This document shows, piece by piece, positions 12,291-17,919 of a stretch of DNA of 64,000 nt. A model generated the notes under the pieces. It saw only the letters and a program-made list of their open reading frames with translations, had not been told where the DNA came from and did not search any database. A program made the position numbers and the translations under genes. This stretch comes from Leeuwenhoekiella aestuarii. GTDB lineage: Bacteria > Bacteroidota > Bacteroidia > Flavobacteriales > Flavobacteriaceae. The stretch spans positions 868,001 through 932,000 of the forward strand of contig NZ_QOVJ01000001.1 of assembly GCF_004104055.1 (NCBI RefSeq). The letters run 5' to 3'. The number at the start of each line of letters is the position of its first letter. Position 1 is the first letter of the stretch.

Positions 12291-14093
12291 ATGAAGTAGT
12301 TTTACGTTTTAATCCGGGTATTAGTAATTGGTATTTTCTCACTCATATTTTTTTCTTGTCAACATGAAGAAGAATTTATATCTCCTGAAACTACAATCGT
12401 TGAGGATAGTTCAGTGAAAAATTCTAAATTTCCGGACCTACAGGATGTTCAGAGTAATTTTAAATCGAAAACATCTGTAAATAAACTTTTTCGTTCTTCT
12501 AAATAGTTCAAAGTCTAGTACAGGTAGTGATTTAAATTTAAGTATTGATTGGGACAATTCTTTCCGTACTGAATTTAATACCGAATTGGATTTAGATGTG
12601 TTATATACGCCTCTTCATTTTAATAGCACGAAGCGATTAAAAAGCTTTATCGCCTCTGCAACAATCAATGACACATTGGTTTCCCAAATTGTTACTTTGG
12701 CCTATGTGGGAACACCAACCTTAGAATATTTTTCAGGGCTACTGTTTACCCATAATTACGAAGGTATTTTGCAAAGTGTATCTTTTTATGAAGAGGGGGT
12801 TTTAATAAAAAGAATCATCAGAAAGGGAAATGGGGATAACAAACAGGGTAAGGCTGGCAACTGTATTAATCCGGCGGAAGGACTTGCTTTTATTTTAGAG
12901 TATGGTATTGACGAGTATGAGGCTTATTTTGTGTATAGTACATGTCTTGAAGAGACAACTATTACTGCCCCATCAAGTGGGGGTGATTTTTCTGGTTCAG
13001 GAGGTGGTGATATACCCTCTGGAGGTCATCAAATACCTGTAGGCAATAGTTATGTTGGTAATACATCAGGTTCGGGTGGCGGTGGTGCAAGTTCCCCGGG
13101 TAATTCAAGCAGCCCTGGCAGCCCATCGTCTATAACGCCAGGCGAGCCTTTTTGGCAGGAAAATGTATCGCCCAGTACCATTTTAATATCTTCATTGTCC
13201 TCCCAGTTGAATTTAAACGTTGCACAGACCAACTGGCTGAATGCTCTTTCCGGTACATCACTTTTGCCTTTTCAGATTAGCTATTTTTTACAACTCAATA
13301 ACAATAGCATTGAAGCCAAAAACTTTGCTAAAGAGGCGATAGGGGTTTTAACAAGATTAGATTTACTTGAGAAGAAGTTTGATGAACAAGGTATAAATCC
13401 TTTAAATACCCCTTGGTTAAATGAGCTAAGGGAGATCGTCAAACATTCAGAGGAGCGGCTAAGTGATGATGCGCCAGAATTTATTAGAAATACAATAAAT
13501 GAGTCTATTGATTTAACTTTACAAACTATGCTTACCGCTACTGCGATAAACCTCTATCAAAATGTGGGCGATGTGGGGAATGATAGCGAAGGGCATAAAC
13601 AAGAGGTTTTCTTAATGATGGACAAAGTGCTGTTGCTATATTACTTTTTGAGTTTGCAAACGGTTTAGGTCCTGAGAACAGAAGTTTTGATTCTACCTAC
13701 GACATCACTCAACAAATGCTTGCAGGGGATGTTGTAAGCAATATTAAAACGGATTTCATGAATGTTTTAAGTGATGAAAATCTAAGCTTTGACAATTTTA
13801 TAATTAATAATCAAAGCCTTCCTGGTAATTATAAATTTAGTCCAGATCATACTTCTTGGAGTGATTCTTTTAATAAGCATATAAATTCTAACTGGGTACA
13901 GTTTTTTATAGGAGGATCTTCTTTAACTTATTATCCCAGTAGTCGTTCAGGTTATGTTACTGTTCAAATGCTAAATCCTACTAGTAGAGCCTCCTTGTTA
14001 CTGCATGCAGGAGAAAAATATGATCGTAGTGATGGCTTTAGGCCGCTTTCAACAATTAATCAAATTTTTTGGTTTGACATTAAGATAGAATGA
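12291..14093 (+). pseudogene. Decayed lipoprotein gene (nonsense codon plus two frameshifts)
   Basis: A single ancestral reading frame of about 600 codons can be followed in pieces. It opens ATG AAG TAG at 12291, where the third codon looks like AAG mutated to TAG. The rest of a lipoprotein signal follows (FYVLIRVLVIGIFSLIFFSC, Cys at 12357). This frame closes at TAG 12504. The sequence continues in the +1 frame between about 12481 and 12503, through LDLDVLYTPLHFN to a Gly/Ser/Pro-rich linker (about 12970-13150), ending at 13666. A second shift between 13599 and 13666 restores the first frame, which runs as AILLFEFANGLGPENRSF to the stop at 14093. I do not recognise the family. The middle part is helical, and the C-terminal part has strands such as SGYVTVQML and ends QIFWFDIKIE. 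Sequencing error is the alternative explanation. Confidence 0.75.
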
Positions 14094-14095
14094 TT

Positions 14096-14581
14096 ATGAA
14101 AAAATATTTTACTTGTATTCTATTATTTATCTTGACTAGTTGCCACCTTATTAATTGCGACTTAGATTCGGATTTAGAACCACTTACCGCTAAGCCTGAT
14201 TCTGAAAGTATCGTCGGAACGTGGTATCCTGATAAACGAACAATGGAAAGCGTTTCAGTATATCGGAAATCTGAAAATCCAGAATTTATAATTTCGAGCA
14301 ACGGCACATTCAAAATGAGTAGAATTCCGGCTAAAACATTCACACTCTTAACTTCAAAAAATCCTTCAGAAAAAAGTGTAGATGCAACAGGAACCTGGAA
14401 ACTTGTTGAAAGTAGAGGGTTTGTTTTTCTTTCGATGGATATTATTTTCGAAAAAAATAATTTTCGTTTGACAAAAATGGGGGTGCCTTGGAAAATTAAT
14501 ATTAAAAATGGAAAAGTTGTTTTATTTAGAATGATTGGAGATCCTGACGAGTGCGAGGCAGTGAGATTAATCAAAAAATAA
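14096..14581 (+). CDS. Small lipoprotein, lipocalin-like repeat-free protein
   Basis: 161 residues with a lipoprotein signal (MKKYFTCILLFILTSC, lipobox LTSC). The mature part contains SIVGTWYPDKRT, then FIISSNGTFKM, and later ATGTWKLVESRGFVFLSM. That GTW...GTW pattern resembles small lipocalin-like lipoproteins of Bacteroidota. Function is unknown. The frame can also start two codons earlier at 14090, where the ATG overlaps the TGA of the preceding decayed gene (ATGA), suggesting the two were once translationally coupled. The gene is intact and AT-rich, unlike the flanking G+C-richer genes. Confidence 0.6.
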   Translation: MKKYFTCILLFILTSCHLINCDLDSDLEPLTAKPDSESIVGTWYPDKRTMESVSVYRKSENPEFIISSNGTFKMSRIPAKTFTLLTSKNPSEKSVDATGTWKLVESRGFVFLSMDIIFEKNNFRLTKMGVPWKINIKNGKVVLFRMIGDPDECEAVRLIKK

Positions 14582-14590
14582 AATACCTTA

Positions 14591-14667
14591 TCTATTACCG
14601 TCCCTATTCTTCGGGTATCTCAGCTCCCGGACGTAATCTGATTATGGCGTTGAAGTATACGTTTTAA
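14591..14667 (+). pseudogene. 3' stub of a second TonB-dependent receptor
   Basis: This stretch encodes YYRPYSSGISAPGRNLIM then ALKYTF and a stop. It is almost the same as the last 23-24 residues of the receptor ending at 10734 (YRPYSSGISAPGRNLIL then ALKYSF), with many synonymous differences at third positions. No receptor sequence precedes it, since the small lipoprotein gene ends at 14581. It is therefore the remaining tail of a paralogous receptor whose body has been lost. Its stop overlaps the stop of the leftward acyltransferase/hydrolase gene. Confidence 0.8.
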
Positions 14668-17267
14668 ACCGGCTTTTGCAACGCCTGTTTGATCACATCG
14701 CTCCAGATGGCGTAGCCTTTTTTGTTGAGGTGCAAGCCGTCTGACATATAGAGTTCGGGATTGGGTTTGTCGTCTAGGGAGATCATTTGTGAGAACACGT
14801 TAATGAATTGCGCATCCAGGCCTGTGATCACATATTCTGAAAGCAATTCGTTAAGCTCCATAAATTGCGGGATGAGATGCGCGCGTTCTACGCTGGGTTT
14901 TAAGCTGATCACCGCCAGCGGAACTTTAGGATATTTTGCTTTTACCGCTTTGATAAGCTCTTTAAAGTCGGCTAAGACTTCAAGCGGTGTGCGGCCTTGG
15001 GTAATGTCGTTTTCTCCGGCATATAAAATAAGCTTCGACGGATTTACATCTTGAAAGATCTCCTCAAAATAGTGCAAACACCAGGCATACGTAGAGCCGC
15101 CAAATCCCAGATTTAAAGTGTGCAAAGGCGCAAGATCCTCTTGCATATGTACCCACAAGCGCACCGAAGAACTTCCGTAGAAAACGTACAAACTCTCTTG
15201 GTTTTTCAGTTTTTCAACACGTCGACGCAGGCGTTTGATCTCGTTGGCCCACATTACCGGAGGTTCTTCTTTCGGCACCGCCGAAAAAGTACTGGTCATC
15301 AAGCTTTTTACTTTTTCGCGAGCTTCGGCCACATAATTCACATACTTTTTTTGATAGTCTTCGACAAAAGCTTTGACCAACTGAGGATCGTTTTTAGCCA
15401 CGCGATCACTCATTTTAAACGGCTTGAGGATCTTGCAGTAGAACAAGGTGTCGTTGATGCGTTTGTCAAAATTCACCAAAACCATAGGAATGATAAGCGG
15501 TTCGGTTTTAAGGTTTAGGGCGAGGTTGAAGGCTCCTGTTTTAAAAGCTCCGGGAGATTCTTCAGAAGTATACGAAGTGCCTTCCGGACTGATGATCATG
15601 TTTTTGTGCTCTTTTAAAAATTCGCTTGCAGCCGTATAAAAAATACTGCGGTTGCTGGTTTTGGCAGCGGCTTCCGGTAGTTCAGATTCTTTGGTGTACA
15701 CGTTGATGTAGCCCAGGTTTTCATAATAATTTTGATGTCCGTATTCCTGCCCTTGCGCAATACGCACCGTGCGTATACCGGGCTCACCGTATTTATCATC
15801 AAGCAAAACGCTGATAAAATGCGAGTCTAAAGTGATCTGAAATTGATTATTCAGCGTGTAAAACGGATGATTCAATAAGTGGTTGTAAATAAAAATATGT
15901 CCGGAGTCCTCAGGCAGATTCTCTAAACCTTCTACATGTACCATAACCGACTTGAGCGCTTCACGTGTGGCTTGCGCACAAGCTTTGCGTTTCTGTTGCG
16001 GGCTGGTTTCGGGATTGTTTTCGGCGACCGCCTCATAAATAGTGCGCAACGCATTTTTAAACTGATGTTCGCGCCGATCGTGTTTTAAAAACTCGAGACT
16101 CAGCGATGCGATATGTCGCTCCAGACTTGTACCCTGCGTTAGTAAATCTTGCAAGGCTTCATAAGCAAACTTTTTAGTGGTTTGATCTTTCAGCAAATGA
16201 AATACCGAATGCAACCTCGAATTCACTGTAAGGCGCGCGCGGTTGTTTTCGATCAATTGATACACGGCATCAATACTATGCTTGCCTAAAAGCGAAGTGT
16301 AGCGAATGAACGCTGCATTGATTTGATTTCCGATAAGCCAAATGAGGCGGTGGTAAAAACGTTTTTTGAGTCGGTCATCTTTCTTCAGAAGTTGATGCAA
16401 ATCCAGATGATTGATATGGTAGACCGCTGTTTTTTCGGTGGTGATGGCATTGCAAATATCAGGAAGGTTGAGCAGGGAAGACCAGCCAAAAATAAATCCC
16501 GAATTGGAGATGCTGCGCTGGCTGATATCAACTTTTCCTTCGATGCGCTTGATGGCTACCTCGCCGTGAATTAAAATGTACAACCCTTCTGAAGGATGAT
16601 CTTGCGCATAAATGATTTCGTTAGGTTCATAGTCGCGCCGGTGCGCAAGTTTGGCGAGTTTGCCTAAATGCAGTTCAGAAAATTGATCAAGAAACGGGGA
16701 GCGCCGCATCAGTTGAATGATCTCAGATTTCTCGATAGACGCATTTATGTAATACTGTTCGTCTTTTGGAATTTGAAAATTACGTGGTTGTAAAAGCGAA
16801 GCTTGCTTGGTCAACGCATTTTTAAGCAGGTGGTAGTTGTTTTGCCCAATCGCAAATAGCAAAGTGTTGACGCCCGGGATATTTGCCTTAAAATCTTTGA
16901 TAGGCACTTTGTAAAAAGTGGCTTGCTCACTGGCAATTTTTGCGCTAAAGGTATAGCGCTCTGGTGCAAAAAAGCCATTCCAACCTATTGTGGTAAAAAC
17001 GGTGTCACTATGTGCGACCTGCACTTCTTGTTCTGCATTTTGATGTTGTGTATAAAAGTCAAGACTGCCTTCAATAAGCCAATAGAGGTGTTTTACTTTT
17101 TTATGAATGGCGCAAAGTGTGGCGCCTTTGTGTTGAGAAATCAACTGACCGGTAGGCAAGAGCTCTTGTAATAATTGAAGCGAAATTTTAGTAGCAGCAC
17201 GTGTTTTCAATAGATAGCAGGTTTTAAGTCCTTTACAAATTATCGCATCGGAAGAAATAAAACACAT
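14664..17267 (-). CDS. Fusion: two cNMP-binding folds + PlsC-like acyltransferase + SGNH hydrolase
   Basis: 867 residues, no signal peptide, so probably cytosolic or at the inner membrane face. Domain order: CRP-like cNMP-binding fold 1 (about 20-150); fold 2 (about 185-315, with EGLYILIHGEVAI then FGWSSLLNLPDICNAITTE); a helical linker; a PlsC/LPLAT-like acyltransferase (about 440-650) with NHLLNHPF near 459 and ISPEGTSYTSEE plus FKTGAFNLAL near 561-580; then an SGNH hydrolase (about 690-867) with block I YGSSSVRLW, GFGGS, GEND and the catalytic DGLHL. The acyltransferase HX4D aspartate seems replaced by Pro (H-LLNH-P). The canonical cAMP arginine in the phosphate cassette is not obvious. 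Inference: ligand-gated phospholipid acyl exchange, with deacylation and reacylation in one chain. The ATG at 17265-17267 gives an odd Cys-rich opening; a TTG at 17210 is a possible alternative start. Confidence 0.8.
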   Translation of the reverse strand: MCFISSDAIICKGLKTCYLLKTRAATKISLQLLQELLPTGQLISQHKGATLCAIHKKVKHLYWLIEGSLDFYTQHQNAEQEVQVAHSDTVFTTIGWNGFFAPERYTFSAKIASEQATFYKVPIKDFKANIPGVNTLLFAIGQNNYHLLKNALTKQASLLQPRNFQIPKDEQYYINASIEKSEIIQLMRRSPFLDQFSELHLGKLAKLAHRRDYEPNEIIYAQDHPSEGLYILIHGEVAIKRIEGKVDISQRSISNSGFIFGWSSLLNLPDICNAITTEKTAVYHINHLDLHQLLKKDDRLKKRFYHRLIWLIGNQINAAFIRYTSLLGKHSIDAVYQLIENNRARLTVNSRLHSVFHLLKDQTTKKFAYEALQDLLTQGTSLERHIASLSLEFLKHDRREHQFKNALRTIYEAVAENNPETSPQQKRKACAQATREALKSVMVHVEGLENLPEDSGHIFIYNHLLNHPFYTLNNQFQITLDSHFISVLLDDKYGEPGIRTVRIAQGQEYGHQNYYENLGYINVYTKESELPEAAAKTSNRSIFYTAASEFLKEHKNMIISPEGTSYTSEESPGAFKTGAFNLALNLKTEPLIIPMVLVNFDKRINDTLFYCKILKPFKMSDRVAKNDPQLVKAFVEDYQKKYVNYVAEAREKVKSLMTSTFSAVPKEEPPVMWANEIKRLRRRVEKLKNQESLYVFYGSSSVRLWVHMQEDLAPLHTLNLGFGGSTYAWCLHYFEEIFQDVNPSKLILYAGENDITQGRTPLEVLADFKELIKAVKAKYPKVPLAVISLKPSVERAHLIPQFMELNELLSEYVITGLDAQFINVFSQMISLDDKPNPELYMSDGLHLNKKGYAIWSDVIKQALQKPV

Positions 17268-17458
17268 GAGGGGAGGCTAACCGATGAATTTTTAGGGATT
17301 TGTAACTTTTGTACGTTTGATTTTTTTGATTCGGCAATATTTAGGGGTTGACTGCTGCAGAGCGGGTTTTTGTGGTACAGTAACCTGAAGCCTTATCTAA
17401 TATTGCTTCAGTCCTGTGTTCAAGTAGTTTTTTCTATAGGGTATGTATACCGTATATA

Positions 17459-17524
17459 CGCCTTTACTACGCCTTTACCACGGGTGAACCTCGGGTAAAG
17501 TACGGGTGAACTATGGGTGAAGCT
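17459..17524. repeat. Six-unit 11-bp tandem array with opposed halves
   Basis: Units in order: CGCCTTTACTA, CGCCTTTACCA, CGGGTGAACCT, CGGGTAAAGTA, CGGGTGAACTA, TGGGTGAAGCT, with no spacer. The first two carry CTTTAC and the fourth carries GTAAAG, so the left part is roughly the inverse of the right part. TTTACC (17474-17479) can pair with GGTAAA (17494-17499). The 11-base period puts each unit on nearly the same face of the helix. Confidence 0.75.
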
Positions 17525-17549
17525 TTGTGTGTTTGGTATCACTTAGGTG

Positions 17550-17687
17550 ATGGACATGGGTGGGGGTAGTTACAAAGTAAAAGAGATAGACTTCAAAGAA
17601 ATTGAGTCGTTTATTGGCACCGCCAAAGGGTTTAATACTCCGAGGCTTAACTCGAAATTGAAAATTCGTTTCCAACACATTTCTTAA
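17550..17687 (+). CDS. Short open frame of doubtful coding status
   Basis: ATG to TAA, 45 codons: it begins MDMGGGSYKVKEIDF and continues KEIESFIGTAKGFNTP then LNSKLKIRFQ. Composition is protein-like (amphipathic, Lys/Glu-rich), but there is no recognised family and no clear promoter, and it sits just after the tandem array. It could be a gene remnant or chance. Confidence 0.2.
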   Translation: MDMGGGSYKVKEIDFKEIESFIGTAKGFNTPRLNSKLKIRFQHIS

Positions 17688-17887
17688 GAGCTTGCTTTGA
17701 GGTAGTTTGCTAATTGATAAAGTACTGATTTATAGTTAGATTGAAGGTTTTGTAAGATACGCTATTTTTAAGCCTTTGTCAACACCTTTGCGAAAATAAA
17801 AGTTGGACTTCTGTTTGATTTTTTCTCAAAGAGCTTATCAGTGTATTAACCCGTAGTTTTATAGGTTTTTTTCTAATCTAAATTCCG

Positions 17888-17895
17888 TAATTTTG
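17888..17895 (+). promoter_or_regulatory. -7 element of the ileS promoter
   Basis: TAATTTTG is a full TAnnTTTG match, 24 bases before the ileS ATG. The -33 region is T-rich (GGTTTTTTT) rather than TTTG. Confidence 0.55.
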
Positions 17896-17919
17896 CACAC
17901 TTATTAGAAAACGCATATC

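Follow-up and report, generated by a model that had tools for sequence, protein, structure and literature searches.

The minus strand of the window, a 64,000-nucleotide stretch of the genome of the marine flavobacterium Leeuwenhoekiella aestuarii, encodes at positions 14664–17267 a single chain made up of two CRP-like domains, a helical linker, a PlsC-fold acyltransferase domain and an SGNH/GDSL hydrolase domain. We interpret this protein, with a probability of about 0.45, as an acyl enzyme centred on its SGNH domain, with a non-canonical PlsC-fold partner, gated by the pair of CRP folds, soluble and probably facing the membrane. The observations on which this reading is built are the domain composition, the conserved coupling of the domains, the invariant residues and purifying selection.

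Overall architecture of the fusion protein

The reading frame is open for 867 codons, counted from the first ATG, and contains no internal stop; read on the plus strand, the same interval is interrupted by stops along its whole length. Translation probably starts at the TTG codon at positions 17210–17208 (residue 20), which would yield a protein of 848 amino acids. This start is preferred because the homologues of L. blandensis and L. palythoae lack the upstream ATG, and because homologues in other genera begin near the matching position.

All four domains of the original prediction were matched by hmmscan above the Pfam cut-offs: two stretches of cNMP_binding (1.5e-18, the best at residues 211–297), Acyltransferase PF01553 at residues 443–597 (1.1e-7, 32.1 bits versus a cut-off of 23) and Lipase_GDSL_2 (PF13472) at residues 700–854 (5.3e-14). 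When relatives from two other genera and a split pair of proteins from Persicobacter were searched, all of these domains were recovered. The first CRP-like domain (residues ~27–165, positions 16773–17189; all features are on the minus strand) corresponds to the second Pfam cNMP_binding stretch. It is followed by the second CRP-like domain (residues ~185–310, positions 16338–16715), which contains the cassette FGWSSLL..DICNAIT, and by a helical linker (residues ~311–440, positions 15948–16337) that is matched by no Pfam family and is 30% identical to that of Persicobacter and ~55% to those of other genera. The PlsC-fold acyltransferase domain comprises residues ~441–655 (positions 15303–15947), and the chain ends in the SGNH/GDSL hydrolase domain (residues ~691–867, positions 14667–15197).

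Three members were checked for a hydrophobic segment of transmembrane grade, and none was present, the best mean hydropathy over 19 residues being 1.3; a cytosolic or peripheral location is therefore probable. AlphaFold models of the full protein and of the acyltransferase domain alone, for which three near-identical sequences were the input, had pLDDT values of 33 and 37. Conservation as one protein in relatives, named beforehand as a sign of support, is borne out by 26 full-length fused homologues from three genera of the Flavobacteriaceae. Full-text literature searches for these domains in combination, with most subscription papers outside their scope, turned up no description, and the domain combination is apparently undescribed to date. 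The claim of a new architecture stands, since the four domains are kept as one protein and the literature searched does not describe it.

A 650-bp gap (positions 17268–17919), with no obvious gene, separates the fusion gene from ileS. It contains short GGGTGAA/GGGTAAAG-like repeats, and an Rfam search of the gap gave no match. Downstream of the stop codon of the fusion gene lie three ORFs (360, 125 and 163 amino acids; positions 12586–14581), none of which matched Pfam; the last one is lipoprotein-like. In L. blandensis and L. palythoae, other small ORFs take the place of these three.

Sensor domains

In the phosphate-binding cassette of the CRP/PKA type, a Glu and an Arg contact cAMP. Compared with the cAMP-binding consensus of CRP and PKA, domain 2 has W262 in place of the cassette Glu and C272/N273 in place of the Arg, as read from the alignment. 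Across the 26 fused members, this cassette reads FGWS(S/C)LL...D.C.AIT, non-canonical yet conserved. Domain 1 lacks the cassette Glu and keeps one invariant Arg; it is divergent, with 19% identity to Persicobacter and 41–45% to other genera. The two cNMP_binding stretches are CRP-like folds by profile, without the Glu/Arg pair that contacts cAMP.

A profile search for class III cyclases (PF00211), a profile that does not catch other cyclase classes or CD-NTases, found none in the carriers G000, G153, G885 and G067; class III cyclases are present in other carriers. The domain 2 cassette and these four assemblies lend support to the earlier suspicion that the ligand may not be cAMP. Judging from the cassette residues, cAMP bound in the classical manner is probably not the ligand, while some binding of a nucleotide may take place, given the invariant Arg of domain 1. 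A role in defence was considered and rejected: the PADLOC match, to PycTIR, is weak and spans only 46 residues of a CRP fold.

Acyltransferase domain

The acyltransferase domain exceeds the profile cut-off of PF01553 and has the PEGT sequence of block III; an HX4D or HX5D motif is absent. The altered motif, N462-H463-L-L-N466-H-P468 (positions 15864–15884), has Pro at +5 from His463 in the window protein, as the original prediction had noticed. Among 28 sequences, position +5 is occupied by P, A, T, Q or S, never by D, the Pro itself not being conserved, and position +6 by H, Y, F or Q, which leaves no Asp or Glu at either place. In the same genome, all six other PF01553 proteins keep an Asp at +5 or +6.

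Residues H463, N466, D481, H483, E508, H511 and E562 are invariant. D481 and H483 lie in the family-specific motif FQITLDSHF (residues 476–484, positions 15816–15842), which is invariant even when Persicobacter and the flavobacterium G067 are included. Block III, SPEGTS in the window protein (residues 560–565, positions 15573–15590), is SPEG(T/N)S in all members. The invariant D481, H483, E508 and H511 could be substitutes for the HX4D aspartate. The domain profile-matches the PlsC proteins of its own genome, and its sole relevant match in the PDB is the PlsC of T. maritima (PDB entry 5KYM); in this marginal alignment, H463 falls on the NH motif of that enzyme.

It had been suggested that this half of the protein may be a pseudo-enzyme. 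The part of that suggestion which holds is the loss of the HX4D aspartate, seen in all members; on the other side, the His and ~60 other positions are invariant and dN/dS is ~0.05, and because of this conservation the domain is taken as functional, perhaps with different chemistry.

SGNH domain

The SGNH/GDSL hallmarks are all present: the Ser of block I, the Gly of block II, the Asn of block III and the Asp-x-x-His of block V. In the alignment of family members the catalytic set S700, G721/G723, N753, D843 and H846 is invariant. The presumed catalytic serine, S700 (positions 15168–15170), is located in the block I sequence YGSSSVR, and the Asp-His block V is D843-G-L-H846 (positions 14730–14741). 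PDB matches of the domain are PAF-acetylhydrolase and lysophospholipase L1-like proteins. In a tree of SGNH domains, those of the fused proteins, of Persicobacter and of G067 cluster apart from ordinary flavobacterial SGNH proteins, with moderate support and with long branches for Persicobacter and G067. One stand-alone leaderless SGNH protein (L005) falls inside this cluster; at its locus (L005:1501-2893, genome G002), a PF00756 esterase follows directly. Two other long SGNH or cNMP frames from the family, both read from the sequence by eye, proved to be unrelated fusions: an 870-residue fusion of a glycosidase-like part (GH20-type) with a carboxy-terminal SGNH domain (L128:2629-5241, genome G115) and a cNMP-sigma54 activator (L129).

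Distribution, arrangements and selection

The closest homologues are those of L. blandensis (92% identity) and L. palythoae (91%). Counting one genome per species, the gene is present in 3 of 13 Leeuwenhoekiella species, in 5 of 9 species of a second genus of Flavobacteriaceae and in 19 of 36 species of a third, where one copy, in a low-quality assembly, is frameshifted (L122, genome G1237); with this copy excluded, 26 full-length fused proteins were aligned. The same domain order, which was to be looked for in other Flavobacteriaceae, thus occurs in two further genera. Sampling at the level of the order, the class and the phylum, with ~395 genomes each, brought up no further close relative beyond genus g2, and viral contigs contained no relatives. 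The presence of the gene is patchy, so it has evidently been gained or lost frequently.

At all three Leeuwenhoekiella loci, ileS and a TonB-receptor-like gene are near the fusion gene (in L. palythoae, as judged by ORF lengths and order). The flanking genes vary from genus to genus, and a neighbouring beta-lactamase-like gene is not common to different genera. Since the fusion gene sits at unrelated genomic places across genera, no operon points to a substrate.

Two further arrangements were found. On a megaplasmid of Persicobacter (Cytophagales), the protein is split into two ORFs with 1 base between the stop of one and the start of the next: a 655-residue protein with two cNMP_binding domains and the acyltransferase domain, and a 209-residue SGNH protein. 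The flavobacterium G067 has a 459-residue protein that contains the acyltransferase and SGNH domains alone, with no sensors. The acyltransferase half of this protein shares 37% identity with that of the window protein and stays below the PF01553 cut-off (E 0.02); the GDSL domain scores well. At this locus (L051:11922-15889), the gene begins 3 bp after a fused OtsA-OtsB-type trehalose-phosphate synthase/phosphatase gene; it overlaps a cupin gene, and a circularly permuted ATP-grasp gene is nearby. A relic of the sensorless form is present in G020 (L020:1380-2260); it has an in-frame stop immediately past NHLxNHP, and its acyltransferase and SGNH halves are joined across an internal deletion. 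Because the two enzyme domains stay paired in the fused, split and sensorless arrangements, the acyltransferase-SGNH pair looks like a stable core to which the sensor is a separable add-on; as the G067 relative has no sensor, sensing is dispensable for this core.

In the two genera with the better sampling, median pairwise dN/dS values of the five regions are all within 0.018–0.063 (0.045 and 0.052 for the acyltransferase domain), and strong purifying selection acts on every domain. A decaying fusion is ruled out by these low values, and the occurrence of the full-length fusion in 26 homologues from three genera contradicts a chance event.

Possible mechanisms

In the mechanism that we favour, S700, with N753 and D843/H846, would most likely carry out the acyl-ester chemistry. 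The PlsC-fold domain, in which the His is kept and the HX4D Asp lost, would present or hand on a lipid acyl group, its role being that of a non-canonical transferase or of a partner that binds acyl chains or lysolipids. The CRP-fold pair would gate this core upon contact with a small molecule or partner, classically bound cAMP being an unlikely one. SGNH catalysis, cooperation of both domains, gating and a lipid substrate are what we infer here; the same invariant SGNH residues would be expected if the SGNH domain acted alone as a hydrolase and its neighbours were inert.

A regulated hydrolase of the latter kind, with all catalysis in the SGNH domain and with a PlsC-fold domain that is a dead scaffold binding substrate or membrane, would resemble NTE/PNPLA6. 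The lost HX4D aspartate and the fully retained SGNH residues fit such a protein, and NTE, with its three putative CNBDs and no shown cAMP binding, is a precedent (PMC6995513). We nevertheless consider it rather unlikely, as H463, N466, the PEG sequence of block III and the charged set specific to the family stay unchanged down to 37–44% identity, which seems beyond the needs of a simple scaffold. If, on the other hand, both halves were active in opposite directions, the protein would perform a ligand-gated deacylation and reacylation of phospholipids of the Lands type, close to the lipid-remodelling enzyme that had been proposed. Both enzyme domains are under purifying selection, PlsC relatives acylate lysophospholipids, and lysophospholipase L1-like and PAF-acetylhydrolase proteins are among the relatives of the SGNH domain. 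The HX4D Asp is gone in 28 of 28 sequences, compared to its retention at +5 or +6 in six of six paralogues of the same genome, and nothing points to a phospholipid substrate, all of which makes this cycle unlikely. Furthermore, a deacylase plus an acyltransferase is one reading among others, because the SGNH domain of acyltransferase-SGNH fusions is thought to be a transferase (PMC9558356).

A cytosolic transferase working as an acyl relay, like the AT3-SGNH and MBOAT-SGNH enzymes, would take an acyl group from a donor with its PlsC-fold domain and pass it, via the SGNH serine, to a small acceptor, for example a sugar; in G067 this acceptor could be related to trehalose. The persistent pairing of the two domains is in agreement with this, as are the final acyl transfer thought to be performed by the SGNH domain of AT3-SGNH fusions (PMC9558356) and the trehalose-phosphate synthase/phosphatase gene next to the G067 gene. 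The acyltransferase fold is different, however, and a transmembrane part is absent; the trehalose link is seen in one genome only, comparable sugar genes not being observed directly beside the fused members examined, and we judge this transferase very improbable. A regulated relay in which the non-HX4D PlsC-fold domain gives acyl groups to, or takes them from, the cytosolic SGNH serine, with the tandem CRP folds reading a ligand other than cAMP, also appears doubtful.

Comparison with known systems

NTE/PNPLA6 has a single (lyso)phospholipase domain that follows CNB-like domains. It shares with the fusion protein the tandem CRP/CNB-like folds ahead of an enzyme that acts on lipid acyl groups; classical cAMP binding is unproven in NTE and unlikely in the fusion (PMC6995513). 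The catalytic parts differ: that of NTE is a patatin domain, that of the fusion a PlsC-fold plus an SGNH domain, and hmmscan gave no Pfam match to a patatin domain in the fusion protein. NTE also has a transmembrane helix. The AT3-SGNH and MBOAT-SGNH systems (OafB, OatA, PatA/PatB) likewise combine an acyltransferase with an SGNH domain, fused or separate depending on the organism (PMC9558356). In contrast to the fusion protein, their acyltransferase is a multi-pass membrane domain of another fold, their SGNH domain is extracytoplasmic and they have no sensors; neither PF01757 nor MBOAT was matched in the fusion protein by hmmscan.

With PlsC/LPLAT proteins (PF01553; T. maritima PlsC, 5KYM), the acyltransferase domain has in common the block around the His, the PEGT of block III and block IV. 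The fusion family differs by lacking the HX4D Asp, by the additional invariant FQITLDSHF and by the attached SGNH domain. All catalytic blocks are shared with the flavobacterial SGNH or lysophospholipase L1-like hydrolases (PF13472), and identity to stand-alone proteins is ~29–36%; the SGNH domain of the fusion, however, is part of a leaderless protein and branches as a separate group of the tree, together with the leaderless L005 of G002.

If the core is indeed a coupled pair, the protein would be a soluble, sensor-gated counterpart of the membrane-bound acyltransferase-SGNH enzymes. Being a naturally occurring PlsC-fold family that lacks the HX4D Asp, it would offer a probe of the residues that this fold requires, and its split, fused and sensorless forms provide a practical way to test whether the sensor and the core need each other.
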